The notes under the pieces were generated by a model. It was not told the origin of the DNA. It did not search any database and saw only the letters and a program-made list of their open reading frames with translations. A stretch of DNA of 33,555 nucleotides from Candidatus Aeolococcus gillhamiae (GTDB lineage: Bacteria; Chloroflexota; Dormibacteria; Aeolococcales; Aeolococcaceae), in NCBI GenBank assembly GCA_003244045.1, contig QHBU01000149.1, positions 1-33,555 of the forward strand, in the 5' to 3' direction. Position 1 is the first letter of the stretch, and every line of letters begins with the position of its first letter. Positions 4,134 through 32,922 of this stretch are shown here, one piece after another. Made by a program: the position numbers and the translations under genes.

Positions 4134-4161
4134 TTGACGATGCGACGCTTTTGGCTACAAT
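4134..4161 (+). promoter_or_regulatory. Sigma70-like promoter of the cysQ operon
   Basis: TTGACG (4134-4139) and TACAAT (4156-4161) with a 16-base spacer. Transcription would start near 4168, about 85 bases before the cysQ GTG. It is one of the clearest promoters in the window. Confidence 0.65.
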
Positions 4162-4253
4162 GAAGCGATTGGTCCGGGGCGTCGCCACGTGGTCTCGTAG
4201 GATACGTCGCCGGGCGATCGGGTTGGTCGAATCGTGAGCAGGGGGTTCGCAGG

Positions 4254-7232: not shown

Positions 7233-7270
7233 GAGCCGCCGCCGGCGCGATAGTGCGCCGGCGCCGGCTC
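7233..7270. terminator. Bidirectional hairpin between convergent genes
   Basis: GAGCCG-CCGCCGGCGC and GCGCCGGCG-CCGGCTC pair around GATAGT with a single bulge. It follows the histidine phosphatase by 17 bases and overlaps the stop codon of the convergent sulfotransferase. There is no clear T-run, so it may act as a stability element or a weak terminator for both strands. Confidence 0.6.
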
Positions 7271-10337: not shown

Positions 10338-11213
10338 CTAGCCACTGAAGTTGACGGGGCCGTGCCAGGAACCCTGGGCGTACCAGGCCTCCCAGAGGGT
10401 GGCGCCGGCGCCCTGCCAGAAGACGAGCTGGGTGGAACCGTCGGTGGTGATCGTGGCGCTCGGGGCCGAGGTCAGCAGGCCGGCACCGCCGAGCGCGTTG
10501 GTGATGTCGGCGGGGCCGTGCCAGGACCCCTGGGTGAACCAGTCCTCCTGGAGGTGGCCGGCGGGGCTCTTCGAGAAGACGATCTGGGTGGAGCTGTCCG
10601 GGGTGACCGCCACGCTCGGCGACGACGCCAGGGTGCCGAGCCCGGCGAAGTCCACGGGGCCGTGCCAGGCGTTGAGCGTGAACCAGTCCTCATTGAGGTG
10701 GTTGTCGGCGCCCTGGAAGAAGACGAGCTGGGTGGAGCCGTCCGGGGTGATCGTGGCGCTCGGCGCCGAGGCGAGGGTGCCGAGGCCGGCGAAGTCGACG
10801 GGGCCGTGCCAGCCACCGGCGCTGTACCAGGCCTCGCCGAAATGGCCGTCACCGCCGCGCCAGAAGACGAGCTGGGAGCCGTCCCTGGTGGTGACCACCG
10901 ACGGTGCGGATGCGAGTGCGCCCTGGCCATTGAGGGCCGCGCCGGTGATGTCGACGGGCCCGTTCCAGGAGCCACTGAACCAGGCCTCGAAGAGGTGGCC
11001 GCCGGGACCCTGCCAGAAGACGAGCTGGGTGGAGCCGTCCTTGGTGACCGCGACGGCCGGGGTGGAGGTGAGTGGTCCGAGCTGCGGGAAGCTGATCGGG
11101 CCGTGCCAGCTCCCCTGGGCGAACCACGCCTCGTTGAGCTGGTTGGTGGAGGTGCTCTTCCAGAAGACGAGCTGCTGGCTGCCATCCGGGGTCACCGCCA
11201 CCTGGGGCGCGCC
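10338..11213 (-). repeat. Direct repeat copy 2: PLL propeller coding region
   Basis: Second copy of the lectin propeller DNA, in the same orientation as 8340-9218 and about 2 kb away, here fused to a phosphoesterase domain. Recombination between the copies would delete the intervening lectin gene 5' part or generate fusions. Confidence 0.85.
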
Positions 11214-12248: not shown

Positions 12249-12260
12249 TCCACTGCGCAA

Positions 12261-12891
12261 GTCAATCTCCCCTACCCTATGCCTCACCGGTGGCCGTCCT
12301 GGAGAAGCTTGTCCACTATCATAGGGGACAGCGCCGGATGGTGCGATTGGTAGTTTCGACACCAATCCACCAGAATTCGGTCCTGCAGCCCAGGCCTCCG
12401 GGGACCGTGGTGGTGGTCGGCGCGCGGGACGACGTGTGGCTGAGCATGCTGTTCTCGGTGCCCAACGCCGGGGCCACCCTGGTCGCACGAGCTGACGTGG
12501 GCGAACGCCCAGCCGCGACTGCGGCGAGCGAATCATGTTGATGAACGCTCTCGCGCCAGACCTTCCGGGGTCGCGCGGCCACGTCGGGGCCGTTGACCCG
12601 GCGCCGATCCTCCGCGTCGCGCCGAACGCGGGGGCAAGCGAGTCTTCCGGCATGACGTCTTTGTTGGATGACCGCACAGGCAGACTGTTATGAAAAGGGG
12701 CGCGAAGGGCACAGAATCGATCTGGCACACCCCGCTGTATTCCCGCGTTCCTTTTCCGCGCCTGTCCCGCCGTGCGCGGACGTTTGGATGCCGCTGCGGC
12801 ACCGCCTTGTGGCAAAGGTGGTCATCGGCTATTCTACAGGTGCCCAAGCTCGCGTTGGTGTGCGTGGGTCGCGCAAAAATTGGGGGGATCA
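12261..12891. other. Divergent intergenic region with possible short gene remnant
   Basis: 630 bases between two divergently transcribed phosphoesterase genes. It should hold both promoters. Part of it, roughly 12398-12520, reads on the plus strand as TVVVVGARDDVWLSMLFS and following residues with high third-position GC, within an open frame starting at 12290 and ending at 12541. I do not recognise it, and it has no good SD. It may be a gene remnant or chance. The remainder shows no gene or RNA that I can identify. Confidence 0.3.
12807..12835 (+). promoter_or_regulatory. Candidate promoter of the IPT-phosphoesterase gene
   Basis: TTGTGG (12807-12812) and TATTCT (12830-12835) with a 17-base spacer. 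It would start transcription near 12842, about 50 bases before the ATG at 12892. Confidence 0.45.
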
Positions 12892-17115: not shown

Positions 17116-17399
17116 CACTATCCAATCAGCCGGTGTGGTGTGTTTGCTGCTGCGACATTTGATGCGTTTGCGTCTCCCGCCCCGTGCTTGCAATACTGGC
17201 GGCCGGATTTAGGGGGGCACCTATCACGGTAGGGAGATACACGTCGTGGCAGCCGTTGCACGCGCCTGCACGCGCCGACGTCAACGCCGCGGTCACGGGC
17301 GCCGAGGATGGACAACAGGTCTGTCTCGACATGTCACCCGCTCACGACGAAATCGCACAGCCGGGAGGAGTCGCGGAGACTCCTGCGTACGGTGGTCGC
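17116..17399 (+). other. Leader/intergenic region before the anchored phosphoesterase
   Basis: 284 bases without a convincing gene. It contains a strong 7-base hairpin AGGAGTC-GCGGA-GACTCCT near 17367-17385, just upstream of the chosen start. TTGCGT and AATACT with an 18-base spacer near 17168-17197 are a weak promoter candidate. The phosphoesterase frame is open through most of it, so an N-terminal extension from ATG 17331 is possible. I do not recognise a riboswitch class. Confidence 0.3.
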
Positions 17400-18599
17400 A
17401 TGTCCTTGCGCACCCGCCTTCACCGTTCCGCTCCCACTCCCGGCGCGACTGCACCGACTCCTTCGTCGTCGCGCCGATTCGCCCGCTGGCACAGTGACTC
17501 GATCGCGCGGACCGGCGTCGCCGTCCTCGGCATCGTCGCCATCGGAGCCATCAGCGTGCTCGCCGTGGAGGAGCACAACCCGACCGCCGTGCATCGGGTC
17601 AATGGGCCACAAGCCGTCGCTGGGTGGAACGCACTGGACGGCCATGAGCGGGACCACGTGCCGGCGCTGCACTCGAGACCGGCGGGCACACCGAAGCCCG
17701 CCCCGACCGCAACACCCTCTCACGCGGCGACCGCGCTCGTACCGCCGTCATCGGGGCAGGCGCCCATCCGCAGAGCGGCAACAGTGGTGCGTTCCGGCCT
17801 TCCGCACGTGATGGTGATCATGGAGGAGAACAAGGGGTACGCGGCCACTCTCGGTTCGTGCGCGTCGGACCCCTACTACTGCTCGCTGGCGTCGACATAC
17901 GCGACGGACACCTCATGGTTCGGCATCGGCCACCCGAGCGCGCCCAACTACATCGGCATCGCCAGCGGCGGGATGCAGGGGGTGACCAGCGACTGCACGC
18001 CGCCCGCGTGCGGGCCGTTCGGCGCCCCATCGCTGGGTGGACAGCTCACCGCCGCGGGGATCCCGTGGCGTGCCTACATGGAGAGCATGCCGTCGCCGTG
18101 CTATGCGAGCGGCAGCTCGGGCCTATACGCCGAGAAGCACAACCCCTTCCTCTACTTCAACGATGTGCGGGCCGCGGCGAACTGCGCCTCGGTCGAGCAG
18201 CCCTACCCGGGGGCCGCAGGCCTGGTCTCCGCCCTCAACGGTCCGGGCGCGCCGGACTTCGTGTGGATCACCCCCAACCTCGCCAATGACATGCACGACG
18301 GCAGCGTCCAGCAGGGCGATGCGTGGCTGAGCGCCAACCTCGCCCCCGTGCTGGCGTCGCCATGGTTCACAGGAGGCAACGCCACCGTGATCGTGACCAT
18401 GGACGAGGGCCCGTCGGGCAACCAGATTCCGATGGTCGTGATCTCCAGCAACGCCAAGAGGAAGGGTCCCGTGGCAACGCCGGGCAACCATTACGGCACG
18501 CTCGGATCCATCGAGCGCGCGTACGGCCTCGGCCTGCTCGGCGCAGCGGGGAGCAGCAGCAGCGGCGACCTCGTCTCCCTGTTCGGCGGCCCCAAGTGA
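17400..18599 (+). CDS. Membrane-anchored phosphoesterase (PF04185-like)
   Basis: A 399-residue protein without accessory domain. A basic cytoplasmic start is followed by one membrane segment (about 37-56), a Pro/Ala-rich spacer (95-130) and the phosphoesterase domain (134-399). Motifs: EENKGY (142-147), HPSAPNY (178-184, Ser180 likely equivalent to the family nucleophile), PDFVWITPNLANDMH, MDEG (334-337) and GNHYGTL. Several cysteines (154, 161, 199, 204, 234, 262) could form disulfides, consistent with an extracytoplasmic site. The ATG at 17400 has only a weak SD; ATG 17331 would add 23 residues. A sulfotransferase gene follows after 25 bases and is probably cotranscribed. Confidence 0.83.
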   Translation: MSLRTRLHRSAPTPGATAPTPSSSRRFARWHSDSIARTGVAVLGIVAIGAISVLAVEEHNPTAVHRVNGPQAVAGWNALDGHERDHVPALHSRPAGTPKPAPTATPSHAATALVPPSSGQAPIRRAATVVRSGLPHVMVIMEENKGYAATLGSCASDPYYCSLASTYATDTSWFGIGHPSAPNYIGIASGGMQGVTSDCTPPACGPFGAPSLGGQLTAAGIPWRAYMESMPSPCYASGSSGLYAEKHNPFLYFNDVRAAANCASVEQPYPGAAGLVSALNGPGAPDFVWITPNLANDMHDGSVQQGDAWLSANLAPVLASPWFTGGNATVIVTMDEGPSGNQIPMVVISSNAKRKGPVATPGNHYGTLGSIERAYGLGLLGAAGSSSSGDLVSLFGGPK

Positions 18600-18624: not shown

Positions 18625-19566
18625 ATGCTGGTCTTCTTCATCGGGACCGGGCGGTGTGGCTCCACCCCGGTTGTCGAGGTGGTGAGCCGCCACCGTGACG
18701 TCGGTTTTGTGTCCAACTTGGACGACAAGCTGAGCCAGCTCAACATGGCTGGCCGCTGGAACAACGCCCTGCACCGCCTCTCGCCGCCGCGCGACCCGCG
18801 CATGCGCCCGTTCCGTGACCGTCGCAAGCTCATCGAGCTCGGCCGGTTCCGCGTCGCGCCGTCGGAGGGCTGGAGCATCCTCGACCGCCAGGTGGCCCCG
18901 GTCATCTCGATGCCCTTTCGCGACCTCCTCGCGGAGGACTGTACGCCGTGGCTGCAGGGCCGTCTCAATGGCTTCTTCGAGCGGCGCATGGCGGTCCAGG
19001 GCCGGGGCACCTTCGTCCACCACTTCACCGGTTGGCCGCGCACAGGCATGCTCCATGCCGCCTTCCCGGATGCGAGGTTTGTCGAGGTGGTTCGGGATGG
19101 CCGCGCCGTCGCCAACTCCTGGCTGCAGATGGGCTGGTGGCAGGGCTACCGCGGCCCCAACGCCTGGCACCTCGGACCGCTGCCCCCTTCGTACGCGCAG
19201 GAATGGGACGACTCGGGTCGATCCTTCGTGACTCTCGCGGGCCTCGGCTGGAAGGTGCTCATCGACGCCTTCGATTCGGCCCGCTCGCTGATCCCGCCGT
19301 CGCAGTGGCTGCGCGTCCGCTACGAGGATGTTATCGCCGAGCCACGCCGCCACGTCGCCGAGATCCTGGACTTCAGTGGACTGGAATGGACCGACGAGTT
19401 CGAGAGGTCGTTTGCGGAGTACCCGTTCGTTGGCTCACGCATCGAGGGCTTCCGCCGCGATCTCGATCGGGACAACATCGCGCTCCTCGAATCCAGCCTT
19501 GCACCGACGCTTCGCACGCTCGGCTACGTTGTCGACGCACCCGAGCCGAAGTCCGCGCTTCCCTGA
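18625..19566 (+). CDS. Sulfotransferase family protein
   Basis: A 313-residue sulfotransferase of the Sulfotransferase_3 type. The PAPS 5'-phosphosulfate loop is GTGRCGST (7-14) and the 3'-phosphate motif is VRDGRAVANSW (156-166); RYEDV follows later, as in the family. It lacks the CGCG-EC motif of the other two sulfotransferases, so it is a different subgroup. The acceptor is unknown. Starts at ATG 18625, 25 bases after the anchored phosphoesterase, without a strong SD, which suggests translational coupling or reinitiation. Confidence 0.85.
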   Translation: MLVFFIGTGRCGSTPVVEVVSRHRDVGFVSNLDDKLSQLNMAGRWNNALHRLSPPRDPRMRPFRDRRKLIELGRFRVAPSEGWSILDRQVAPVISMPFRDLLAEDCTPWLQGRLNGFFERRMAVQGRGTFVHHFTGWPRTGMLHAAFPDARFVEVVRDGRAVANSWLQMGWWQGYRGPNAWHLGPLPPSYAQEWDDSGRSFVTLAGLGWKVLIDAFDSARSLIPPSQWLRVRYEDVIAEPRRHVAEILDFSGLEWTDEFERSFAEYPFVGSRIEGFRRDLDRDNIALLESSLAPTLRTLGYVVDAPEPKSALP

Positions 19567-19650
19567 GGAACCGCGAGCCCTCTCCGGCCCGAACGTGCCG
19601 AGAATGGCACACCGCACCATCTACCAGAAACGCCTACAGTGGCGGGTGCC

Positions 19651-19656
19651 TATAAC
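19651..19656 (+). promoter_or_regulatory. Candidate -10 element before the two-IPT phosphoesterase
   Basis: TATAAC lies 29 bases before the ATG at 19685 in a 118-base gap. No clear -35 is present. A short leader with GGGGGCGGG as SD follows. Confidence 0.3.
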
Positions 19657-19684
19657 GGCACAGGGCACAGGGGGCGGGCTCTTG

Positions 19685-21757
19685 ATGCTAGCGCGTCCAC
19701 AGCGATTGGCCGCCGGCGGCACTTGGTTTGCACGGCAGGCGCGCTCGCTCGCGCTCGGTGGGATCGTCGCCACCACCGTGATGGGGTGGACAGTGGCGCA
19801 GGCCATACCCGGGTTCGGGACATCGTGGGGGGTCGCGCAGAGCTTTGGTGCAGCCAGCGCTTCGACGGCGACCTCGCTGACAGCGTCGACGGCGACCAGC
19901 ACAGGAAGCGGCGACCTACTCGTGGCTGCCATACGAGCACGCGACACCAGCGCGCTGTCGACGGTGAAAGGCATCTCCGATTCCGCAAGGAACGTGTGGG
20001 TCAAAGCGGTGACGGTCATCCAGGGTACCCAGGCGGACGGCGAGATCTGGTACGCCGCGCATGCTGTAGGCGTCGCCGGTGTCACGGTGACGGTCACAAC
20101 GCCGGCTGCACTCGCGATGACGGTCCTCGACATCACCGGCACCTCCGCGACCGCGTTGGACCGCACCGTCGCACTCTCGGCGAATAGCGCATCGGCGTCG
20201 ACCGGGACGACGTCCGCAACGACCCAGGCGAACGAGATTGTCGTTGGCGCCATCGGATGGAACGCGAAGGTCACCCCCAGCGCGCCTGCTGGGTACGCCA
20301 TCGGGACCATCGAGCAGTCGAACGCCTCGGGAACAGCGAGCGGCGAACAGACGGCGTGGAAGGTGGTCAGCGCCGACGGTCCGCAGGGATACGGAGTTAC
20401 TCTGAGCAGCCCAGCTGGTTGGACGGGCACTATGGCCACGTTCGCGATAGCGACATCGCCACCGCCGACGGTGACGGGCTTCAGTCCCTCCGCTGGACCG
20501 GATGGCGGCACCGTCAGCATCACCGGCAGCGGGTTCACCTCCGCAACCGGGGTGGCCTTCAACGGCATCAGCCAACCTGTCTTCACCGTGAACAGCGACA
20601 CCCAGGTCACCGCCACCGTGCCCACCGGAGCCACGAGCGGTCCGATCACGGTGACCAACTCCGGCGGTGCGGGCACCTCATCACGGTCCTTCACGGTGCA
20701 GCCCACGATCACTGTTCTGAACCCCACGAGCGGCCCGATCGGGGCCGCGGTGACGATCTCGGGGTCAGGCTTCAGCGGTGTCACCGGCGTAGCCTTCTAC
20801 GGCGGAACAGCCGCGACGGTCACGACCTCCAGCGACTCGCAGATCTCCACGAGCGTTCCTAGCGGAGCCACCAACGGCCCGATCACGGTCACCACCGCGG
20901 GTGGAACAACCAGCTCGTCCGCTTCGTTCACGGTGACGACGCAGCCGGCCACACCCCACGTGATGGTTGTGCTTCTCGAGAACAAGGGCTACGCAGCCAC
21001 GCTGGGTAGCTGCGGCGCAGGCTCGCCCGACCCGTACTTCTGCTCCCTGGCATCGGCGTACACGAGTCTCACCTCGTGGCACGCCCTGTCTCACCCATCG
21101 CTGCCCAACTACCTCGCGTTGGTCAGTGGCTCAACGCAGGGATGCACCAGTGACACTTGCAAGGGTCCCTACACAGGCCCGGAGTTGGGGGGACAGTTGA
21201 CGGCGGCAGCAATTCCAATTCCGTGGGCCGCGTACATGGAGACGATGCCATCGGCTTGCTATACGCAGGGGAGCAGCGGAGCGTACGTCAGGAGGCACGA
21301 TCCCTTCCTGTACTTCAACGACGTTCTCAACAATGGTTGCGCCAACGATGTCCTGCCATATCCGGGAAGCAGCGCGATAGCGCCGGCGCTGACCGCACCG
21401 GGCGCGCCTGACTTTGTCTGGATAACCCCAGACCTCAATGACGACATGCACAAGGGCACCATCCAACAGGGCGATGCTTGGCTGCAGGCAAATATCGCCC
21501 CCGTGCTGAGTTCCCCCTGGTTCACGGCGGGCAACGCCACGGTCATCATCACAATGGATGAAGGCCTCAGCTCAGATACAACGAATCAGGTCCCCACTGT
21601 GATTATCTCGAGCAATGCTCAGGGGAAGGGCAATGTGAGCGCGCCTAGTGGCAATCACTACGGGCTGTTGCGTTCGATAGAGGAAGCGTTCGGATTGCCG
21701 TACCTCGGCGCAGCCGCGGACCCAACCAACGCCGATATCTCTGGCCTCTTCGGCTAG
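19685..21757 (+). CDS. Secreted phosphoesterase with unknown N-terminal domain and two IPT/TIG domains
   Basis: A 690-residue exported protein. The signal sequence covers about residues 1-40. The unrecognised N-terminal domain spans about 52-256 (SFGAASAS, GEQTAWKVVSADGPQ, GWTGTMATF). Two IPT/TIG modules follow (about 262-339 and 340-422; GFSPSAGPDGGTVSITGSGF, then LNPTSGPIGAAVTISGSGF). The phosphoesterase (about 424-690) has LENKGY, HPSLPNYLALVSG, PDFVWITPDLNDDMH, ITMDEG and GNHYGLLRSIEEAFGL. It belongs to the HPSxPNY subgroup with the genes at 17400 and 22022. The ATG at 19685 follows GGGGGCGGG; the frame is open further upstream but overlaps the sulfotransferase. The substrate is unknown. 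Confidence 0.85.
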   Translation: MLARPQRLAAGGTWFARQARSLALGGIVATTVMGWTVAQAIPGFGTSWGVAQSFGAASASTATSLTASTATSTGSGDLLVAAIRARDTSALSTVKGISDSARNVWVKAVTVIQGTQADGEIWYAAHAVGVAGVTVTVTTPAALAMTVLDITGTSATALDRTVALSANSASASTGTTSATTQANEIVVGAIGWNAKVTPSAPAGYAIGTIEQSNASGTASGEQTAWKVVSADGPQGYGVTLSSPAGWTGTMATFAIATSPPPTVTGFSPSAGPDGGTVSITGSGFTSATGVAFNGISQPVFTVNSDTQVTATVPTGATSGPITVTNSGGAGTSSRSFTVQPTITVLNPTSGPIGAAVTISGSGFSGVTGVAFYGGTAATVTTSSDSQISTSVPSGATNGPITVTTAGGTTSSSASFTVTTQPATPHVMVVLLENKGYAATLGSCGAGSPDPYFCSLASAYTSLTSWHALSHPSLPNYLALVSGSTQGCTSDTCKGPYTGPELGGQLTAAAIPIPWAAYMETMPSACYTQGSSGAYVRRHDPFLYFNDVLNNGCANDVLPYPGSSAIAPALTAPGAPDFVWITPDLNDDMHKGTIQQGDAWLQANIAPVLSSPWFTAGNATVIITMDEGLSSDTTNQVPTVIISSNAQGKGNVSAPSGNHYGLLRSIEEAFGLPYLGAAADPTNADISGLFG

Positions 21758-22021: not shown

Positions 22022-24040
22022 ATGATCCGACGCTATCTGTCGCTAATTCCGCTCGCCTTCGCGCTGCTGCTTGCGGCCTCGTTCACGGGCGCGCGCACGC
22101 CGGCGAACGCCTCCGCTCTCGGTGCGCGCAACCCCTACGCGCAGCCGTTCGCCAGCTCGTCCATCTGGAACCAGCCGATCGGCAGCGCGGCGTCGTATGT
22201 GCCGGCGCGGATCGCGCCACCCACGGTGCGTGCGCTGACCGCTGACCAGACGTTCGTGCTGATGAACCCCAAGGCCCCGATGACCACGATCACGCGCAAC
22301 GGCGGTCAGCACGCCAACCGCTGCAACGGCAACGGCACGGTCGCCACGGTGCCGGTCCCGGCGTCGCTGGTGGTGCCGTCGTCGACGTCCAACAACGGCT
22401 ACGCGGCGGTCGAAGCGGACGGCAAAACGGTCATCGAGGGCGGTGACTTCGCACGCTGCGCGCCCGGGTCGACGCCGACCGTCGGCTCGGTGAAGGTCAT
22501 CGGCTCGCTCTACGGAGATGGCACCATTGGCGGCGTCGGCGGCTCTGGCCTGTCCGTTCTCGGTGGCCTGCTCCGCGTCAACGAGTTGGTGCCGGGCGCG
22601 ACGATCACCCACGCGCTGCGCGTCAACCTCGACGGCAGAGCCGACCTCTTCAAGGCGCCTGCTGCGACCTGCTACCGCTGGCCGGCCACGCGCTGCGACG
22701 GTTACGGGCCCGCGCGTTACGGCGGCACCAACCCCGCGCTGAAGATGGGCGCGCTGCTGGCACTGCCGGCGAACCTCGACCTCAGCAGCCTGGGCATCTC
22801 GTCGGGTCCAGGGCTGATCCTTGCCCGCGCGCTCCAGAACTACGGCGCATACGTCAGCAACGACACCGCCCGGCCGGTCTTCAGCATCGTCACCGAGGCG
22901 GGCGGCGCATCGACCGTGGCGCAGTTCCAGAGCGCCTGGGGCTTCTCGTTCACGACCTCTGGCGTGAGCGGCAGCCCCTGGGCGAACGACATCATGCTGA
23001 TCCTCAGGCACCTCGACGTGGTCAACAACAACGGCCCTGCTTCCGTCGGTGGCGGCGGCGTCGCCCGCGTGCCGCAGGCCCCTCCGCTCGACGGCTCGGG
23101 CGGTCCCACGCCGACGCCCTCGCCCACACCTAGCGACTCGCCGACCCCCTCGCCCACGCCCTCTCCGACGGCGACGCCGCGCCCCACCGGCACGCCGACG
23201 CCGAATCCCACACCGTCCCCGACCGGAACGCCCACCTCTTCGCCGACGCCCACGCCAACCGGCGGGAAGCCGCACGTCATGGTGGTGATGCTGGAGAACA
23301 AGGGGTACGGACCCACGCTGGGGACGTGCACCGCTGACCCGTACTTCTGCTCGCTCGCGGCCACCTACGCGTCGTACACAAACTGGCATGGCGTGGGCCA
23401 CCCGAGCCTGCCCAACTACCTCGCCTTCGACAGCGGAAGCTCGCAAGGATGCGCCTCAGACAGTTGCGCCACGGGCCTGAGCGCCACCGACCTCGGCGGC
23501 CAGCTGTCCATGGCCGGCGTCCCGTGGACCGCGTACATGGAATCCATGCCGTCGCCGTGCTACACGGGTGGGTCGGCGGGCGGATACGCCAGGAAGCACA
23601 ACCCCTTCGCCTACTTCACCGACAACGGCCCGACCTGCCACGTGCAGCCGTACCCCGGAGCCGCCGGGATGGTGGCGGCGCTCGACGGCCCGGCCGCCCC
23701 TGACTTCGCCTGGATCACCCCGAACCTCATCAACGACATGCACGATGGGACAGTCCAGCAGGGCGACGCCTGGCTCCAGGCCAACGTCGCGCCGATCCTC
23801 GCCTCGAGCTGGTTCACCAACTTCCCGTCCACGGTCATCGTGACCATGGACGAGGGCGACTCGGGTGGGTCGAACCAGATCCCGCTGGTGGTCATCTCGC
23901 ACGCCAGCAAGGGCCAGGGAGCCATCGCCACCGCGGGCAACCACTACGGCACCCTGCGCTCGATCGAGGAGGCGTACGGCCTCGGTCTTCTCGGGGGCGC
24001 AGCGGCCGCCGGCATCGCTGACCCGATCCACAGCTTCTGA
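22022..24040 (+). CDS. Secreted phosphoesterase fused to an uncharacterised N-terminal domain
   Basis: A 672-residue exported protein. A signal peptide (1-32, likely cut near ANASA) is followed by a domain of about 310 residues that I recognise only as an uncharacterised secreted family: it opens NPYAQPFASSSIWNQPIG and has CYRWPATRCDGYGP (about 217-230) and a YGAYVSNDT stretch. A long PT-rich linker (362-415) joins it to the phosphoesterase domain (416-672), with LENKGY, HPSLPNYLAFDSG, PDFAWITPNLINDMH, TMDEGD and GNHYGTLRSIEEAYGL. ATG at 22022 with AAGGGG nine bases upstream. The linker implies a flexible two-headed extracellular protein. The N-terminal domain could be an enzyme or binder; the sequence does not say which. 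Confidence 0.83.
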   Translation: MIRRYLSLIPLAFALLLAASFTGARTPANASALGARNPYAQPFASSSIWNQPIGSAASYVPARIAPPTVRALTADQTFVLMNPKAPMTTITRNGGQHANRCNGNGTVATVPVPASLVVPSSTSNNGYAAVEADGKTVIEGGDFARCAPGSTPTVGSVKVIGSLYGDGTIGGVGGSGLSVLGGLLRVNELVPGATITHALRVNLDGRADLFKAPAATCYRWPATRCDGYGPARYGGTNPALKMGALLALPANLDLSSLGISSGPGLILARALQNYGAYVSNDTARPVFSIVTEAGGASTVAQFQSAWGFSFTTSGVSGSPWANDIMLILRHLDVVNNNGPASVGGGGVARVPQAPPLDGSGGPTPTPSPTPSDSPTPSPTPSPTATPRPTGTPTPNPTPSPTGTPTSSPTPTPTGGKPHVMVVMLENKGYGPTLGTCTADPYFCSLAATYASYTNWHGVGHPSLPNYLAFDSGSSQGCASDSCATGLSATDLGGQLSMAGVPWTAYMESMPSPCYTGGSAGGYARKHNPFAYFTDNGPTCHVQPYPGAAGMVAALDGPAAPDFAWITPNLINDMHDGTVQQGDAWLQANVAPILASSWFTNFPSTVIVTMDEGDSGGSNQIPLVVISHASKGQGAIATAGNHYGTLRSIEEAYGLGLLGGAAAAGIADPIHSF

Positions 24041-24125: not shown

Positions 24126-25244
24126 TCAGCCTTTGCTGACGGGCAGCGCAGCCACGACGGACGCGAGAGTCGCTGCTGGCACCGCGTTGTACCCCTTGGG
24201 CAGCTCAACCGCGTTGGCGCCGACGGAGGCTGCCCACTGGAGAGTCGTGGTCAGGTCACCGATGCGTGTCAGCGCCGCGGTCTGAAAGGAGATCGGGCTG
24301 CCCAGCAGGATCATCGCCTCATACATGTGCTGGTACAGCCCCGGCTGCAGAGGAAAGCGGATGGAATTGTTCTCGAGCACGCACTGCGGGCCGAGGGTCA
24401 CTCGGCAGTAGTGCATCATCTGCTCGGTGAAGTCCTCGTCGGAGGCGTGAACACCGGCGCCGACCACCAGCTGATAGGGATTGAAGGCCACGCCGATGCG
24501 CGTGCTGTGCCATACGGTGCCCAGCTGGATCTCCTGGCTGATACACGACTTGTCCGCGTTGATGGTGAAGCCCGCGCTGAGAAGGTTCTGCACGGTGGAT
24601 GGATCCTCGACGTCGCGGATCATGGTCTCGGCGTAGAACGTCATGCACCGCGACACGGTGACCTCGCGAATCTCCGGCACGGAGTCGTACCGGGCGGCGA
24701 GGCGCTTCCACAGGTCAGCGTACGCGGCGCCGAAGGCGTCAGTCCAGAAGCGCCCGACCGTGCCGGTGAGCGCCCCTGCCGTCACCGCCACGGGGGGCCC
24801 GCCGAGTTGTTTCGCCCAGGCAGGCGCGTACACACCCGTGTACAGGCGGATCTTGATGCCGACCGGCGTCTGACCAGCGACGGCATTCATCCGTCGCGCG
24901 GTGGTCATCGCCTGGTCGATGGCATTGTTCGCGACGATGTCGCCCGGCGTGGGCTGGAGGTCGCTCCAGTTGACGGCGACGACGAAGTTGGTGACGACGT
25001 TGCGCAGAGCAGCCGCAGGCGGACCGTCGCGATCGATCAGGCCGTGGAGCATCGGCTTCAGGTTGCTGTTCAGCGTTGGTTGCGGGCTTGCCGGCGTGGA
25101 GCTCGACCGGCTGGGGCTTGCGGTCACCAGCACCGGTGTCTGCTCGTCGCACCCGGCGAGCGCCACCAGGAGACCGGTCACGACGAGCAGCCCTCGCGTC
25201 GACCACGCCACACGGACGGCACGTTGAATCGCCGCTGATCTCAC
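24126..25244 (-). CDS. Lipoprotein with possible glycoside-hydrolase-like barrel
   Basis: A 372-residue predicted lipoprotein. The lipobox VALAGC places the lipidated cysteine at residue 32, followed by a Ser/Pro-rich spacer. The rest resembles the TIM-barrel start of GH42-like or related proteins: NFVVAVNWSDLQPTPGD, IKIRLYTGVYAPAW, a Trp/Tyr-rich helix YADLWKRLAARY and EIREVTVSRCM. Catalytic acids cannot be assigned with certainty, so it may be a glycan hydrolase or a non-catalytic relative. It is the last gene of the minus-strand polysaccharide cluster, 67 bases after a glycosyltransferase. The GTG at 25244 has no good SD. Alternative starts downstream would still include the lipobox. Confidence 0.65.
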   Translation of the reverse strand: MRSAAIQRAVRVAWSTRGLLVVTGLLVALAGCDEQTPVLVTASPSRSSSTPASPQPTLNSNLKPMLHGLIDRDGPPAAALRNVVTNFVVAVNWSDLQPTPGDIVANNAIDQAMTTARRMNAVAGQTPVGIKIRLYTGVYAPAWAKQLGGPPVAVTAGALTGTVGRFWTDAFGAAYADLWKRLAARYDSVPEIREVTVSRCMTFYAETMIRDVEDPSTVQNLLSAGFTINADKSCISQEIQLGTVWHSTRIGVAFNPYQLVVGAGVHASDEDFTEQMMHYCRVTLGPQCVLENNSIRFPLQPGLYQHMYEAMILLGSPISFQTAALTRIGDLTTTLQWAASVGANAVELPKGYNAVPAATLASVVAALPVSKG

Positions 25245-25311: not shown

Positions 25312-26448
25312 TCAACCACGTAGCACGCGCAGGTACAGGTCCTCAGTGGCATCGGTCGCCGCATCCCAGTCGTATTCGCGCACCACCCGGTCGCCGAGCC
25401 GGCGTGCGCCCTCGCGCTCGGTGGACGGCGACGCGAGCACTCCGGCCAGCGCGTCGTGGAGCGCATGCGCGTCGCCGCTGCGGAACAGCCGACCACCGGG
25501 CCCACTCGCGCCGATCACCTCGCGGTGCGGAGGGATGTCGCTGGCGATCAGCGGGAGTCGATATGACGCCGCCTCCAGGAGAGTGAGCGGGAGCCCCTCC
25601 AACTTCGAGGGCAGCACGAACGCGGCGGCGTTGCTGTACAGCTCCGCCAGCAGCTCGCCATGCACCGGGCCAGTGAACACGATTCGTTGGTCGGACGCGG
25701 CATCGCGCTCCAGGGTGCGCACGTATTCGTCCGTATAACTGGACCCGCCGGCGATGAGCAGGCGCGCGCCCGTGTCGAGTCCCCGGAACGCGCGGATCAG
25801 CAACGCCGGATCCTTTTCGGGCACCAGTCGCCCGACGAAGAGCACGTAGTCACCGCCATGCACACCCCAGCGCTCGGTGATCAGCCGCGGCTGCCGGACC
25901 ACGGGCACGGACACGCCGTTGCGGATGTGATGGGCCTCGCGCCCGTGGTGGGTTCGGTAGTAGGCAGCGAGAGCGGCCGACACGGTGATCGTCGCGTGGG
26001 GCACATGGGCGCTGATCCATCCCGCCCCGCGCAGAGCAATGCGCGCGCCCAACCCCCACTTCTCACGGTCGTAGTCGAGGCCATGGACGGTGAGCACCAC
26101 CTTGCGCGCCGACAGCAGGCGCGGCAGCGGCGTGAAGACCGACGGGCCGATCGCGTGGTAGTGGAGGATCTGCGCGGACTCACGGCTGGGCATCATCGCC
26201 GCCGTCGTTGACAGGCCGCTGTGGACGAGCGCCTCGAGGTGCTTGGTCGGCGCGGTGGGGACGTAGCGCACGCGCATGCCGCGGTGCTCGCTGACATGGG
26301 TGCTGCTGTAGTTGTTCCGGGTGTACACGGTGACCTGGTGCCCGCGGGCGGCCAGCCGTGAGCCGATCTCCTCGACGTGGTGCTCGACGCCCCCGATGGT
26401 GGCCGGCACGCCGCGCTGACCGATGAAGGCGATACGCAGCCGCTTCAC
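25312..26448 (-). CDS. Glycosyltransferase family 4 protein
   Basis: A 378-residue GT-B glycosyltransferase that likely adds a sugar from a nucleotide-sugar donor to a lipid-linked or surface glycan. The N-terminal domain opens RIAFIGQRGVPATIGGVEHH, typical of WcaJ-neighbour rhamnosyl- or mannosyltransferase-like proteins. The C-terminal donor domain has YVLFVGRLVPEKDPALLIRA and the E-x7-E motif in LEGLPLTLLEAASYRLPLIA. The GTG at 26448 overlaps the upstream gene's stop as GTGA, indicating coupling; a longer frame exists upstream but lies inside the neighbour. The sugar donor and acceptor cannot be deduced. Confidence 0.9.
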   Translation of the reverse strand: MKRLRIAFIGQRGVPATIGGVEHHVEEIGSRLAARGHQVTVYTRNNYSSTHVSEHRGMRVRYVPTAPTKHLEALVHSGLSTTAAMMPSRESAQILHYHAIGPSVFTPLPRLLSARKVVLTVHGLDYDREKWGLGARIALRGAGWISAHVPHATITVSAALAAYYRTHHGREAHHIRNGVSVPVVRQPRLITERWGVHGGDYVLFVGRLVPEKDPALLIRAFRGLDTGARLLIAGGSSYTDEYVRTLERDAASDQRIVFTGPVHGELLAELYSNAAAFVLPSKLEGLPLTLLEAASYRLPLIASDIPPHREVIGASGPGGRLFRSGDAHALHDALAGVLASPSTEREGARRLGDRVVREYDWDAATDATEDLYLRVLRG

Positions 26449-27689
26449 GCGGCGCTCGCGGGGCGGAGGCTGACGCCGGCATCCCGGTACGCCGTTTCGA
26501 TGCGCTCCAGGTGTCGCTGCGGGGAGAACTCGGAGGCAACCCGCTGACGCGCGCGCTCGCGCATCGACATCCCATACCCGGGGTCGGCGAGGAACGGCGC
26601 CAGCGCCCCGGCAAGTGCGACGGGATCGTTGGCCGGCACCAGGTCGCCGGTCGCGCCCGGCTCGATCAGCTCGGGCAGCCCTCCCAGGGCACTGCCCACG
26701 ACGGGGACGCCGCGGGCCAGCGCCTCGAGCACCACCATGGGCTGGTTCTCGTACCACCGCGAGGGCACGACGACGACCGACGCCGCCCGCATCATGCGGT
26801 CGACCCCGGGCTTGTCGAGCAGCCCGTGGAAGCGCACGCGGCCCGGCGCCACCTGCTCCGCCAGAGCGCGGAGCCGCGCTTCTTCAGGCCCGGCGCCGGC
26901 GATGTCGAGGGTGGCGCCGTCCAGCATGCCCACCGCGCGGACGGCGACGTCGACGCCCTTCTCCGGGGAGAGCCTGCCCGCGACGAGGATGCCACCACCC
27001 GGTTCGTCCTTGAGAGCGAGCGGCGCGTAGTCGATGAAATGGGGCACGTGGCGCAGGCGGCGCACGAACACACCCGCCTCGGCCATCTTGTCCGCAAGGA
27101 AGCGGCTGGGACAGACGAACACCCTGACCGGTGCGTACGCGCGGGTTGCGGTGTGGATGAACAGCTCACCCGCCGCCGCTGCGCTGGCGGCGAGGGAGCC
27201 GTCCTTGCAGCGGCGCAGCAGCGCGTTGTGGAACTTGCCGCCGAGGCATGCTTCGCAGATGTTGCCGTGGTCGAGGAACTGGTACGTCGGGCAGGCCAGT
27301 TTGTAGTCGTGCAGGGTCATGACCGCGGGCAGGTGACGGCGCGCAACCGGCCGCAGCACCGAGGGCGAGAGCTGGTGATAGATGTTGTGCAGGTGCACGA
27401 CGTCCGGCTCGAAGCGGTCGATGACGGCGTGCATGCCGCGCGCGGCTGAGGTCGAGTACACCATCCGCGCCGCGCCCCTGACACGCCCGCTCATCGTGGT
27501 GGGCGGCGGCTCCATCTCGATGTGGCTGGGGAAGAACTGCTGGTACTCCAGGTGCGTGTTCAGCGGGTGTTGCATGCCGAAGAACGCGACGGTATGACCC
27601 GCAGCCACCTGCAGGTCGGCGAGGTCCTCCATGTACGCCTCGGCTCCTCCACGTCGATAGAGGAACTTGTTGACGTGGAGGATCCTCAC
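26445..27689 (-). CDS. Glycosyltransferase family 4 protein
   Basis: A 414-residue GT-B glycosyltransferase. It begins ILHVNKFLYRRGGAEAYMEDL, with DVVHLHNIYHQLSPSVL and a cysteine-containing NICEACLGGKF segment seen in many GT4 capsular enzymes, then GILVAGRLSPEKGVDVAV and the ENQPMVVLEALARGVPVVG donor-site motif. Start GTG 27689, 20 bases after the polymerase gene; SD weak. Same operon as the ligase/polymerase and the following glycosyltransferase, so it probably builds the repeat unit of a surface polysaccharide. Confidence 0.9.
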   Translation of the reverse strand: MRILHVNKFLYRRGGAEAYMEDLADLQVAAGHTVAFFGMQHPLNTHLEYQQFFPSHIEMEPPPTTMSGRVRGAARMVYSTSAARGMHAVIDRFEPDVVHLHNIYHQLSPSVLRPVARRHLPAVMTLHDYKLACPTYQFLDHGNICEACLGGKFHNALLRRCKDGSLAASAAAAGELFIHTATRAYAPVRVFVCPSRFLADKMAEAGVFVRRLRHVPHFIDYAPLALKDEPGGGILVAGRLSPEKGVDVAVRAVGMLDGATLDIAGAGPEEARLRALAEQVAPGRVRFHGLLDKPGVDRMMRAASVVVVPSRWYENQPMVVLEALARGVPVVGSALGGLPELIEPGATGDLVPANDPVALAGALAPFLADPGYGMSMRERARQRVASEFSPQRHLERIETAYRDAGVSLRPASAA

Positions 27690-27708: not shown

Positions 27709-29229
27709 TCAGGCGCCGTGGGGCGCCGGGAGTGGCCTGAGGTTGTCGAGCGGGGCAGGCTCGTCCTCCTCCGCGGGCGCGGGGAGCCCGCGGAGGACGG
27801 CGTTCTGCCGGTACTGCGTGACCGCGAAGGCCGCGGCGGCGAAGGCGACGTAGTACCAGAGCACGATCACCTCGCTGATCACGTTGGAGACGATGCTGAT
27901 CAGCACGAAGGCGATGACGCAGCCGGCGAAACCGACGGCGATCGACCGCTCGTAGCTGGAGGGTCGCCGCTTGGTGAACCGTAACGCGTGTCGCGCGACG
28001 ACCACCATGCTGATGAGCAGCGCGAAGTAGGCGACGGTGCCCACCACACCGGTCTCGACATACGCTCGCAGGAAGTCGTTGTGGGGCTCCTTCTGCTGGT
28101 TGGTGGCGAAGGAGCTCATCTTCAGCCCGATCCCCGTGATGGGGTCCTTGGCGGCAAGGGGCAGCACCTGGCCCCAGTAGTTGAAGCGCCAGGTCAGCGA
28201 GTTGGACGCCGTGCCTGATGGGTTGGTGGACTGGCCGAGGTCGGCGAAGCGCGCCGCGATCGTCGGCACCGCGACCAGCGACACCAGCATCGTCCCGATC
28301 ATGATGGCCAGCATCGCCCGGCGACGGCCGAGGTACGCGACTGCGAACAGCCCCACCACCACCGCGATCCACGCGCTGCGGGTGTAGGTGAAGTACAGGC
28401 TGATCACACTGCAGATCAGCAGAGGACCCATGGCCAGACGCTTGCGGATGCTGAGGTGCGGGAACAGCGCGGCCCCCATGACGATGAGCATGGTCAGGTA
28501 GATCGCGAAGGGGTTGGGCTGGGAGAACGTGCCCTGGTAGCGGTCGAAGCCGCCGCTGCTGAACTGGGTGCGGTGGAACACCACGTTGAACATCGTGAGA
28601 CCCACGGGCAGCAGCGCCGAGACGTAGATCGCGCCGATCAGCCGCTTGATGCTCTCCCTGTCGACGAGCATCACCTCGAGAACCGCGAGCATGACCACCA
28701 CTGCCGTGACACGAATCGCCTCGAGAAAGCTGACCGAGACGCTCGCCGAGTCGATGATGCTGAGGAACCCCGCGGCGGCGAACAGGCCCAGGCAGATGCG
28801 GTGGATGGACGCGGGTGGCGCCACGCGGCCCTCCCGCTTGCGCGTGAGGTACCAGAAGAAGGCGATAAGGATGAAGATCACCGCCAGGCCGCCGGCGGGG
28901 TCGAGCCCCGACGCCGACGCGGTGGCGACCCCGGCGGTCCCGGTGCTCGTCGACGACGGCTTGACAACGTCCATGCTCGATCGCAGCACGATCGTCGCGT
29001 ACACGAAGGCCTCGAAGTTGACCACCCCCAACAGCACCAGGGCGAGCCCAGCGACGAGCGCGATGGGCAGGATCACGAGCAGCTTTGAGCCGCCGGTGGC
29101 CGCGACCATGGTGCTCTCCACCGCGAGCACGACGATCACCACCCCGCAGAGCGCCATCAGCAGGCGCTCACGCGGGCTCGAGGTCGGCGATCCGTGCCGG
29201 AGTCGGGAGTTGCGGATGAGGGTTGCCAT
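27709..29229 (-). CDS. O-antigen ligase / Wzy-like polymerase family membrane protein
   Basis: A 506-residue multi-pass membrane protein of the Wzy_C (O-antigen ligase/polymerase) family. About a dozen hydrophobic segments are seen. The diagnostic region is the periplasmic loop with PITGIGLKMSSF and KEPHNDFLRAYVETG, His383 lying in the HNDFL motif, followed by a membrane segment. Family members polymerise lipid-linked repeat units or transfer the chain to an acceptor; sequence alone does not separate these. ATG at 29229, SD weak. Preceded by a strong promoter (29340-29368). Confidence 0.85.
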   Translation of the reverse strand: MATLIRNSRLRHGSPTSSPRERLLMALCGVVIVVLAVESTMVAATGGSKLLVILPIALVAGLALVLLGVVNFEAFVYATIVLRSSMDVVKPSSTSTGTAGVATASASGLDPAGGLAVIFILIAFFWYLTRKREGRVAPPASIHRICLGLFAAAGFLSIIDSASVSVSFLEAIRVTAVVVMLAVLEVMLVDRESIKRLIGAIYVSALLPVGLTMFNVVFHRTQFSSGGFDRYQGTFSQPNPFAIYLTMLIVMGAALFPHLSIRKRLAMGPLLICSVISLYFTYTRSAWIAVVVGLFAVAYLGRRRAMLAIMIGTMLVSLVAVPTIAARFADLGQSTNPSGTASNSLTWRFNYWGQVLPLAAKDPITGIGLKMSSFATNQQKEPHNDFLRAYVETGVVGTVAYFALLISMVVVARHALRFTKRRPSSYERSIAVGFAGCVIAFVLISIVSNVISEVIVLWYYVAFAAAAFAVTQYRQNAVLRGLPAPAEEDEPAPLDNLRPLPAPHGA

Positions 29230-29339: not shown

Positions 29340-29368
29340 ATTGTAAGGGAAAAAGTTGGTCATGACAA
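29340..29368 (-). promoter_or_regulatory. Sigma70-like promoter for the polymerase-glycosyltransferase genes
   Basis: Minus-strand TTGTCA (29368-29363) and TACAAT (29345-29340) with a 17-base spacer. It overlaps the 3' end of the flippase gene and would start transcription near 29333, leaving a leader of about 100 bases. It matches consensus better than any other site seen here. Confidence 0.65.
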
Positions 29369-30997
29369 CCTCTCAGCGTCGGCTTGGAGCGCGGCTGTCG
29401 CCGGCCGTCTCCGCAGCGAGCGCCAGGTCGTCGAAAGATCCTTGCCGGCGAAGAGCAGCATCGCCAGGGCGAGGATGGCGACCCCGCCCAGCCCGGTGAC
29501 CGCGGTGCGGAGAAAGAGCGTGCCGGTCGAGAGGGAGTCGTCGAGCTGGAAGAGCAGGACCGCCCCCACCATCGCTGCTCCGCTGATGACAGAAGCTGCG
29601 ACGAGCCGCGGCGCCAGACGTGCCAGGCCGCGAGCCGGTGAACCGATCGCGCGACGCAGGCAGTACCAGGCGTGGGTAACGTTGACGAACTGGGCCAGCG
29701 AGTACGCAAGCGCGATCCCGATGATGGCGTTGCGGTTTCCCCACCCGAATGGCAGGGTCAGAAGAGGCAGGAGAGCCAGGTTGGCGAGCACGCCGTAGAC
29801 GGTGTTGTGCAGAGGCGTGCGCGTGTCCAGGCGGGCGAAGAACGGCGCCAGCAGGACGCGCTGTAGAGCGGAGCCGACGAGGCTGATCGAGTACACGGCG
29901 AGAATCACTCCGAGCAGCGAAGCGCTTGCCCGGGTGAAGTTGCCCCGCTGGAACACGGTCAGCGCGGCGGGCTCAGCGAGGACTGCCAGGAAGACGGTGA
30001 GCGGCACGCTGAGCGCCAACATGATGCGCAGCCCCAGCCCGGTGATGCGCAGCGTCTCGCGATTGTCGCCACGGATGTGAGCCTCGGTGAGGCGCGGCAC
30101 GAGGGCGACGACGACAGAACGGAAGAAGATGGTGCCGCCGATGGCCGAGATGAGCCGGTAGCCGTAGTTGAGGATGGTGATGGAACCCACCGGGAGAAAC
30201 GACACCATCAGCTGCTCGCCAAGGCGGGCCAGCGGGTTGCAGCCGGCGGCGACGAACGGGCGCACCGACAGTTTGCCGACGGCGCGCAGCTCTTGGTTCT
30301 TCAGGTCGAGCACAGGGCGCAGGCGTAGCCCGCGTCGCACCGCCATCGCCGTCATGAATGACACCTGGCCGACAGCGCCGGCGAGGTAGCCCCAAGCGAC
30401 GACGGCGATGACGTGCCGCGGCCCGACCAGAATCACGGTTGCAGCCACGCCGCTCAGCACGACGTTCATCAGCGCGGGCACGATGAACGCGTAGCGTGCG
30501 TTGCAGAACGCCCGCATCACCTCCGAGACGGCCACCAGCGGCACCATCGCGAAGACGATGGGAACCATCGTCGCAGCGGTGGAGACCTCGTTCGAGGAGA
30601 TGCCAGGTGCGGTGATCCGGATCAGTGGTGTGGCCAGGAGAGAGGCGAGGACCACGAATGCGGCACCGGCGACGATGACGACGCCGACGATCCGCGACAC
30701 CAGGCGGCTGGTGGCGGCGTCACCGTTAGCCGTCATCGACGTCCGGAACGCGGCGACGAGTGCCTGGTTGGCAACCACGAGGACGACGGCAACCAGGCCC
30801 AGTGGAATCCGCGCGGCGACGAAGAAGGCGTCGGTGTTGCGCCCCGCGCCAAAGCGCGCGGCGATGGTGATGTCCAGCAGCAGGCCGACCCCGACACTGA
30901 CAGCCGCCGCGACACCCGTGAGCCCTGACTGGCGGATGACGGCGCGGTCCGAGTGGTGCCCGGCGGTGTCCGCCGGGTCCCCTGGACCCCGTCTCAC
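29360..30997 (-). CDS. MurJ/MviN-like polysaccharide flippase
   Basis: A 545-residue membrane protein with about 13-14 hydrophobic segments of the MOP/MurJ superfamily, which flips lipid-linked glycan units across the membrane. Signatures include ARFGAGRNTDAFFVAARIPLG near the N-terminus, ANQALVAAF, the SVRPFVAAGCNPLARLGEQ block and TVFQRGNFTRASASLLG. In a polysaccharide operon, a Wzx-like role is more likely than lipid II flipping. The GTG at 30997 overlaps the sulfotransferase stop (GTGA), matching other coupled pairs here; GTG 31006 is a close alternative. Confidence 0.88.
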   Translation of the reverse strand: MRRGPGDPADTAGHHSDRAVIRQSGLTGVAAAVSVGVGLLLDITIAARFGAGRNTDAFFVAARIPLGLVAVVLVVANQALVAAFRTSMTANGDAATSRLVSRIVGVVIVAGAAFVVLASLLATPLIRITAPGISSNEVSTAATMVPIVFAMVPLVAVSEVMRAFCNARYAFIVPALMNVVLSGVAATVILVGPRHVIAVVAWGYLAGAVGQVSFMTAMAVRRGLRLRPVLDLKNQELRAVGKLSVRPFVAAGCNPLARLGEQLMVSFLPVGSITILNYGYRLISAIGGTIFFRSVVVALVPRLTEAHIRGDNRETLRITGLGLRIMLALSVPLTVFLAVLAEPAALTVFQRGNFTRASASLLGVILAVYSISLVGSALQRVLLAPFFARLDTRTPLHNTVYGVLANLALLPLLTLPFGWGNRNAIIGIALAYSLAQFVNVTHAWYCLRRAIGSPARGLARLAPRLVAASVISGAAMVGAVLLFQLDDSLSTGTLFLRTAVTGLGGVAILALAMLLFAGKDLSTTWRSLRRRPATAALQADAERLS

Positions 30998-32922
30998 GCC
31001 GCCCACTTCTGCCGCTGTTGGCGATGCACGTCGTCAAGGCGGGCCGTCAGCTGGTCGCACAGCATGCGCACCCGCGGGTCGAGGTCCAAAGGCGGCCGGC
31101 CCCCGGACGACGGCGATCGCAGGTGAGCGACCAGCCCGGGGCGGTAGGTGAGGTCGAGGAACGAGCAGAGGGCGCCCATGGCCCCCGGCGGGTCGCGCAG
31201 AAGGTCCTGGTACGAGGCGAGCATCACATCGTTGCGCTGCTCGAGAAGGAGCTCGAAGTAGAGACCGTTGCGCATCCACCACATGAGAGCCGCTGCGCTC
31301 TCCGGGGTCATCGTCCGGTAGTCGAAGCTCGAGAGCACGCCGAGGGTTTCCGCGGAGAGCCGCTGTGCCTGCCACATGTCGTCGCCCCTGCCCGCCGCGA
31401 TGTCCCCAAGCACGAGGAGGTTGTTGCGCCCGAACTTGCTCACCGCGGAGCGAACCCGCCCGTCAACGTCGCGGTACGCCCAGATGGCGCGCCCCGGAGA
31501 CGGGGTGCTCACGTCGTCGAGGAGGTGATCGACCCGATGGGAATCGCAGAGTGGCTTGAAGAGCACGTAACGGTGCCGGCTGGCGAGCACGATGCGCTGG
31601 ACGACCTCGTCGGAACGTAGCTGGAACAGGTGGAACGCGGCGCTGTCGTTCTCGTTGCGCACCTCGAACTCCGGCGCCGTGTCGAGTCCGCGCGCCAGCA
31701 TGTTGGTGCCGGAGCGCTGCAGGCCCACCAGGTAGACGGGGATGGCGCGGCCCGCCGGCTGCGGGTGAGCCCGGCGCCAGCGGCGCTTGTCAGCCGCGAC
31801 CCGGGCGCGCGTGATGGGGTTGAGCTCGTCCTCCTCGACGAGGCGACCGAAACCCTCGGTGCGTCCCCAGCGGAGATGGCGACGCACCTTGCGGACCAGG
31901 CGCCCGGCGGAGCGCTCGTTCGCCGGGGCGCGGTCGAAGATGGTCTCGGCGGCGGCGGAATCGACGGCCGGGGCGCGGCGCGCGGCGCGCAGCGGGTAGC
32001 CGTACCGCAGCAGAAGTGGGGCGGTGGCCGCAGCCACGAGCCGCCGGTCGCGGCTGGGCATGTCGGTGAGCCAGCGTGTGTCGGCCCGCAGGTGAACGAT
32101 GCCGTTGCGTAGCCGGTCAGGGTTGCCGGCGACGCTGTGGTTGCTGTCGAGGTGGACCGTGCCACCCACCAGCGTGGGCGCCTGCGCGGGATCGGTGCCA
32201 GTCATGGCGAGGATCCGCGCCACCGCTGCTGCCGGGTCCGCGACAAAGTCCTCGTACCGCAGGCGCAGGTAGCTGTGCGAGCGGCCATCGAACAGCGCGC
32301 TCGCGGCGAGGTTCCAGACGTCCCACAGCATCGAGCTCTTGGCAGGACCGATCTTCTCCATGTGCAGGCGGCTGGCGCCGTCCGTCAGCGCTTTGCGGCT
32401 TGCCCAGGAGTGCGCCGCCCCGCGAGGGTCGCGCACGAGGTGCACGACACGCAGGTCGATGCCCGGCGTGGCCGCGAGCAGGGTGGCGTAGGCGGGCAGC
32501 TTGGACGAGTCGACGATCACCCGGCTCGAGGTGACCTCCGCGATGGCGGGATACAGCGCCGCCAGCGCCTCGCGGGCGGGTGCAGCTGTCGCCCCCCGCG
32601 TCGGGTCGAGGCCGGGCAGCAGGCGTCCCGACACCATGCGCGGGAGGTGACGGATCCTGCCGGTGTCGGCGAGCCAGCCGACCATCGCCCGCGGGTCGAC
32701 CGCCGCCCCGCGTCGCGCCGCCGTCGCCAGGACCTCGGTCCACACGGGGCATTCGGCAACGGGGACGCCGCACCCGCACAAGCGGTTCTCGATCAGGCCC
32801 CGCTGCCAGAGGAAGCGAACCTCGCCCGCGGCGAAGAAGCCATCGACCTCGCCAAGGACGTTGGCCAGCACGGTGCTGCCGCTGCGACCCGTACCTGCGA
32901 TGTAGAGGACTGTTGTAGACAT
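30994..32922 (-). CDS. Double-domain sulfotransferase
   Basis: A 642-residue protein made of two sulfotransferase domains. N-terminal domain: phosphosulfate loop GTGRSGSTV (10-18), ENRLCGCG...EC (45-58), VIVDSSKLPAY and VRDPRGAAHSW (163-173), RYEDF. C-terminal domain (about 393-642): loop GLQRSGTNML (400-409) and a second RD motif, YRDVDGRVRSAVSKFG (483-498). A basic linker (about 340-390) joins them. Single-domain sulfotransferases usually have 250-350 residues, so this is a fusion of two divergent ones, perhaps sulfating two positions of the same glycan. ATG 32922; SD weak. Coupled to the flippase gene, which supports action on a lipid-linked saccharide. The frame is continuous; I see no sign of a sequencing fusion. 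Confidence 0.87.
   Translation of the reverse strand: MSTTVLYIAGTGRSGSTVLANVLGEVDGFFAAGEVRFLWQRGLIENRLCGCGVPVAECPVWTEVLATAARRGAAVDPRAMVGWLADTGRIRHLPRMVSGRLLPGLDPTRGATAAPAREALAALYPAIAEVTSSRVIVDSSKLPAYATLLAATPGIDLRVVHLVRDPRGAAHSWASRKALTDGASRLHMEKIGPAKSSMLWDVWNLAASALFDGRSHSYLRLRYEDFVADPAAAVARILAMTGTDPAQAPTLVGGTVHLDSNHSVAGNPDRLRNGIVHLRADTRWLTDMPSRDRRLVAAATAPLLLRYGYPLRAARRAPAVDSAAAETIFDRAPANERSAGRLVRKVRRHLRWGRTEGFGRLVEEDELNPITRARVAADKRRWRRAHPQPAGRAIPVYLVGLQRSGTNMLARGLDTAPEFEVRNENDSAAFHLFQLRSDEVVQRIVLASRHRYVLFKPLCDSHRVDHLLDDVSTPSPGRAIWAYRDVDGRVRSAVSKFGRNNLLVLGDIAAGRGDDMWQAQRLSAETLGVLSSFDYRTMTPESAAALMWWMRNGLYFELLLEQRNDVMLASYQDLLRDPPGAMGALCSFLDLTYRPGLVAHLRSPSSGGRPPLDLDPRVRMLCDQLTARLDDVHRQQRQKWAA

Follow-up and report, generated by a model that had tools for sequence, protein, structure and literature searches.

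A fused double sulfotransferase in Dormibacterota

The window, a 33,555-nucleotide stretch of contig QHBU01000149.1 from Candidatus Aeolococcus gillhamiae (assembly GCA_003244045.1), carries the gene of a fused double sulfotransferase, 642 amino acids long, at 30994..32922 on the minus strand, among a set of polysaccharide genes. The host is a soil bacterium from the little-studied phylum Dormibacterota, and its assembly is a fragmented metagenome bin of 2.96 Mb in 302 contigs, 84% complete. The gene was delimited by reading the frame, Pfam searches, comparison with relatives and alignment: it runs for 642 codons from an ATG at 32922 to a TGA at 30996-30994, without an internal stop. A preliminary description of the stretch had reported this continuous frame at the same coordinates, omitting the strand, and its two phosphosulfate loops lie where it placed them, GTGRSGSTV from residue 10 and GLQRSGTNM from residue 400. 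Both of the RD motifs that it named are present as well, at residues 164-165 and 484-485 and not at 163 and 485 as quoted.

Among 150 related genomes searched, 7 others from the host's family carry the fusion at full length, each time in a single open frame of 637-696 codons. These proteins share 52-69% identity with the window protein over its whole length, and in an alignment of the 8 fusions the motif residues of both halves are invariant. The named fusion-bearing relatives are recorded as Candidatus Dormiibacterota, one being filed as Chloroflexi. The fusion is a genuine joining of two divergent, motif-complete sulfotransferases of different subfamilies.

Two motif-complete sulfotransferase modules

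As the preliminary description had suggested, each half was put through a domain search and a structure prediction; each alone scores above a Pfam sulfotransferase cut-off, and both models match solved sulfotransferases that use 3'-phosphoadenosine 5'-phosphosulfate (PAPS). The N module, residues 1-313 (31984..32922, minus strand), is defined by a Pfam match over residues 7-243, AlphaFold and Foldseek; it belongs to PF13469 and has a conserved CGCG at residues 49-52. On its own it reaches 47.4 bits against PF13469 (cut-off 27). The AlphaFold models were made for each half separately, and that of the N half has a predicted local distance difference test score (pLDDT) of 84.7 and a predicted template modelling score (pTM) of 0.86. 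Foldseek matches it to the TPST, CurM and Ols sulfotransferases (best E 7e-8, probability 1.00). The C module, residues 340-642 (30997..31905, minus strand), is defined by the same three methods. Alone it reaches 35.7 bits against PF13469 (cut-off 27) and 25.2 bits against PF00685 (cut-off 22), and its model (pLDDT 90.6, pTM 0.88) matches 3-OST-3, TPST and NDST1 (best E 2e-5, probability 1.00).

N-type and C-type sets were aligned apart, a joint alignment with the fusions having misplaced N sequences. In 25 N-type proteins the 5'-phosphosulfate loop GTGRSGST (residues 10-17, 32872..32895, minus strand, as are all motifs here) is almost invariant, and R13, E34, D138, K141, R164 and S172 are all invariant. 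E34, a candidate catalytic base, lies at 32821..32823; it is followed by DSSK at residues 138-141 (32500..32511), in which S139 and S140 are conserved in at least 90%, and by the 3'-phosphate site RDPRGAAHS at residues 164-172 (32407..32433), in which D165 and R167 are also invariant. The C half repeats this layout with residues of its own, and in 37 C-type proteins R403, E424, K456, R484 and S492 are all invariant. Its 5'-phosphosulfate loop GLQRSGTNM spans residues 400-408 (31699..31725), with G400, Q402, G405 and T406 invariant too; E424, again a candidate base, is at 31651..31653, FKPL at residues 455-458 (31549..31560) includes an invariant P457, and the 3'-phosphate site runs from R484 to S492 (31447..31473). 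In profile alignments E34 and E424 fall on one shared glutamate of tyrosylprotein sulfotransferase (TPST), the second of its GEETR motif, which we take to be the catalytic base of that enzyme. From this alignment a role as catalytic base may be inferred for E34 and E424.

The essentials of a sulfotransferase are given as a Glu or His base, a Lys or Arg in the 5'-phosphosulfate-binding loop and a Ser in the 3'-phosphate-binding site (PMC11625862). The N half has all of these in R13, E34 and S172, with R164 also invariant, and the C half likewise has its basic loop residue, its Glu/His base candidate and its 3'-site Ser. Loss of PAPS-binding residues from one half, raised earlier as grounds for doubt, is not seen in the window protein, and these residues are kept in its relatives.

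Junction and origin of the fusion

The halves meet in another segment than the one first described. Residues ~340-392 (31747..31905, minus strand), read in the preliminary description as a basic linker, are instead the conserved native N-terminal segment of C-type enzymes: stand-alone actinobacterial C-type proteins (e.g. L040 and L057) open with a segment that matches them, the start in L040 being RRVRRHLRWARTEGIRRLVEEDRLDPVDRARTALAKWRWRRTHP. Stand-alone N-type proteins stop soon after GYPxR, which is residues 308-313 of the fusion. Because stand-alone C proteins start at about 340 and stand-alone N proteins end at about 313, the true junction is the stretch of about 25 residues in between, ~314-338 (31909..31983, minus strand). 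It varies in length and sequence in the alignment, and the N model has a pLDDT below 50 at residues 317-343.

A scan with the C-half alignment over 84,980 species genomes returned 53 loci. Six of them contain the Dormibacterota fusion; some thirty are loci of Actinomycetota in which C stands alone, and in 27 of these an N-type gene is close by. Of 251 genomes sampled from Micromonosporaceae, 38 carry the C gene, and an N orthologue, counted at no less than 60% identity to the query, is present in exactly those 38. Identical genome sets would have a chance probability of about 6e-46 for independent genomes, but these genomes are not independent, and the adjacency of the two genes is the firmer point: N and C lie on one contig, 1,245-1,926 bases apart and divergently oriented, in 38 of 38. 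Two further window genes, a glycosyltransferase (26445-27689) and a sulfotransferase (18625-19566), are ~55% identical to the genes that directly flank N in Micromonospora. Because these flanking genes are conserved along with N and C, the glycosyltransferase, N, C and the third sulfotransferase make up a module common to two phyla.

The trees of N and C agree in their broad outline. With distant stand-alone relatives as the root of the C tree, the fusions nest within the separate actinobacterial genes, which makes the separate arrangement probably the ancestral one. In both trees 7 of the fusions make up a single clade with support of 99-100. The eighth (G013) tends to join separate genes of Acidimicrobiia (support 86), a tendency present in both trees; a single clade of all 8 is not rejected by the approximately unbiased test (p 0.097 for the concatenated alignment, 0.31 for N and 0.56 for C).

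Two other origins for the long frame were considered, and both were rejected as extremely improbable. An assembly or frameshift error could have merged two adjacent genes: the bin is fragmented, the end of the contig is close to the gene, and in other lineages the homologues are indeed two genes. But 8 genomes share the fusion in one frame, with invariant motif residues and with end-to-end identity of the other seven in the range given above, which excludes assembly error, and the Micromonosporaceae genes point apart, so that a simple frameshift could not have fused them. The preliminary description had named separate homologues and sequence error together as its own test; separate homologues were found, in Actinomycetota, and the error was not. 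The frame might also have come from a tandem duplication of one sulfotransferase gene inside this lineage, given that both halves have the sulfotransferase fold. Here too the comparison is against it, with next to no probability left to it: BLASTP between the halves gives no significant match (E 0.07), they are related by profile comparison alone (16% identity, probability 97%), and each has its own separate orthologous genes in Actinomycetota at 44-62% identity. The earlier view that the halves are divergent and not a recent duplication holds on the same evidence.

The surrounding polysaccharide operon

The fusion is followed on the minus strand by a MurJ/Wzx-like flippase (29360..30997; PF03023, E 7e-59), whose GTG start overlaps the fusion stop as GTGA. 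This overlap had been pointed out before, and orthologues support a start at this stop codon or close to it: the flippase comes directly after the fusion in 7 of 8 loci and starts at or shortly past the stop in all 7, with a TAG followed immediately by ATG in two of them (G025 and G014). The flippase scores 203.6 bits against TIGR01695, short of the 235.55 cut-off for the MurJ equivalog, which suggests that it is MurJ-like and probably the Wzx of the cluster.

Next in the window, all on the minus strand, come a Wzy/O-antigen ligase-like polymerase (27709..29229; PF04932, E 4e-22), 63-70% identical to its counterpart in fusion loci, and two GT4-type glycosyltransferases. One, at 26445..27689, was assigned by Pfam and by comparison and is the ~55% identical orthologue of the gene beside the separate N gene in Micromonospora; the other, at 25312..26757, was assigned by Pfam and probably has its true start near 26440. 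The third sulfotransferase (PF13469), at 18625..19566 on the plus strand, is orthologous (52-56%) to the N-adjacent one in Micromonosporaceae. Upstream of the fusion, at the contig edge, 32974..33500 (minus strand) is probably the C-terminal part of a Wzz-like chain-length protein, judged by eye from a transmembrane segment and a coiled coil. No similarity could be detected between it and the Wzz of L017, an orthologous locus. Its frame breaks near 33490, which may be an assembly-edge error. Relatives have a Wzz (PF02706 in L017), a priming sugar transferase and another two sulfotransferases upstream of the fusion. The polysaccharide operon proposed in the preliminary description is borne out by the flippase, Wzy and glycosyltransferases in the window and by the sugar transferase and Wzz in L017; the parts of a Wzx/Wzy cluster are found partly in the window and partly, as priming sugar transferase and Wzz, in this orthologous locus.

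Several other genes of the contig were recorded. A second, more distant N-type sulfotransferase (7269-8192, minus) has 35% identity to the N half and 81% to such a sulfotransferase of a congener (L010). Beside the operon, five PF04185 phosphoesterases, paralogous to one another and in two cases bearing TIG domains, are interleaved with a sulfotransferase (10338-12815, minus; 12772-14790, 17184-18599, ~19637-21757 and 22022-24040, plus), and loosely similar proteins occur close to the fusion in L020 and L022. A conserved 372-amino-acid protein adjoining the operon (24126-25244, minus) matches no Pfam family above cut-off, and those same two loci have homologues of it (42-53%) close to the fusion. 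A TauE/SafE-type sulfite exporter family protein (3067-4188, minus) is on the same contig as the sulfotransferases.

Proposed function and alternatives

The protein is probably bifunctional, a PAPS-dependent sulfotransferase of the cytosol with one independent active site in each half, and would place two sulfates on a lipid-linked repeat unit before it is flipped. A signal peptide would not fit ahead of the phosphosulfate loop, which begins at residue 10, and the enzyme is therefore expected in the cytosol, the site of PAPS synthesis. In the proposed pathway the two neighboring GT4 glycosyltransferases would build an undecaprenyl-linked oligosaccharide repeat unit, and the N and C modules, as complete enzymes of two subfamilies linked by a short disordered junction, would sulfate two different positions of that one unit at the cytosolic face. 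The co-translated MurJ/Wzx-like flippase would then export the sulfated unit, and Wzy would polymerize it under Wzz control. We infer the activity of each site, the acceptor and the timing of sulfation before flipping from sequence and gene context.

PAPS supply is consistent with this in the relatives: adenosine 5'-phosphosulfate (APS) kinase, which PAPS synthesis requires, is found in all 7 other fusion carriers. In one genome an N-type sulfotransferase match abuts an APS kinase match (G011:C7:36040-37412), linking PAPS supply to a sulfotransferase.

Several observations weigh against the proposed function. The assembly that contains the window yielded neither APS kinase nor an ATP sulfurylase of the Sat type, in a search that did not extend to CysN/CysD; this is judged to be incompleteness, because the bin is 84% complete and the assembly of a congener, at 91% completeness, has the kinase. 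The Foldseek TM-scores are modest for both halves (0.4-0.6), and for this reason the type of acceptor is not readable from the fold. The G013 fusion is not directly beside a flippase. Finally, with additional sulfotransferases in the cluster, sulfation is not necessarily confined to the fusion protein.

Two other functions were considered. The acceptor could be a sulfated glycolipid or small molecule, with the Wzy-like protein acting as a ligase, which we consider unlikely. NoeE matches weakly over the N half, at 24 bits against a cut-off of 500, and PF13469 includes the Nod-factor sulfotransferase NodH (PMC11625862); set against these is the complete Wzx/Wzy-type set around the gene in relatives, comprising priming sugar transferase, Wzz, flippase, Wzy and glycosyltransferases. 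A slightly less probable case is that only one half is catalytic and the other serves for acceptor binding or dimerization, as is frequent in duplicated enzyme domains. Sulfotransferases commonly dimerize, and the two modules are always found together, but PAPS and candidate base residues are kept in both halves of all 8 fusions, and both families also occur as stand-alone proteins. The preferred reading is still two active sulfotransferase sites acting on one lipid-linked unit. It is possible, if somewhat doubtful, that the two-headed enzyme goes further and couples two regiospecific sulfations of one unit that is channeled straight to the flippase, in a pathway common to Dormibacterota and sporulating actinomycetes.

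If the two-headed reading is true, there would be a sulfated-glycan pathway in Dormibacterota and sporulating actinomycetes, groups for which the literature found holds no chemically demonstrated sulfated polysaccharide. A fusion in one phylum together with perfect neighbor co-occurrence in another is strong comparative evidence for a shared product, and the fusion predicts a sugar polymer with two specific sulfate groups. An observation from an uncultured lineage would then become testable in common laboratory strains of Micromonospora, where the genes are separate. Bacterial sulfated polysaccharides have been stated to be known from cyanobacteria only (PMC13390465, PMC8205485), and a review places them in six genera (PMC11625862); the window locus is predicted to add another, widespread source, and the fusion is a ready candidate bifunctional enzyme for glycan sulfation.

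Comparison with known systems

A literature search, which covered few subscription journals, found no tandem or bifunctional double sulfotransferase in one chain. A single-chain likeness is to NDST1, the heparan N-deacetylase/N-sulfotransferase, which is also bifunctional with a PAPS sulfotransferase domain, but whose partner domain is a deacetylase and not a second sulfotransferase. Distant C-type sulfotransferases of Pseudomonadota (L069, L070, L071), ~30% identical to the C module, carry a C-terminal GT4 glycosyltransferase; they too are fused to a glycan enzyme, and differ from the window fusion in that the partner is a glycosyltransferase.

Among described clusters, the Xss cluster for synechan in Synechocystis encodes two sulfotransferases, XssA and XssE, which belong to distinct subfamilies and have separate genes; its polymer bears about two sulfates per eight sugars (PMC8205485). 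Like the window locus it is of the Wzx/Wzy type and pairs two sulfotransferase subfamilies; unlike it, it is cyanobacterial, and no fusion is described. The wps-1 locus of Actinoplanes missouriensis, also of the Wzx/Wzy type, encodes WpsB and WpsH, sulfotransferases from different families (PMC13390465). Deletion of wpsH gives squashed sporangia, an adjoining sulfate-activation gene is also required for normal sporangia, and the sulfated polysaccharide itself is predicted by the authors, not shown (PMC13390465). Here the genes are separate, and the other genes of the cluster, GH26, GT2 and GT26 among them, differ from those of the window.

The Micromonosporaceae loci (L040, L053) are also close. 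Their separate, always adjacent genes are orthologous to the N half (44-49%) and to the C half (49-61%), and they have the same neighboring GT4 glycosyltransferase and third sulfotransferase. They differ from the window in having two divergently transcribed genes in place of one, and in L040 the flippase is of the Polysacc_synt family and about 6 kb off, whereas in the window a MurJ-like flippase is adjacent to the fusion.

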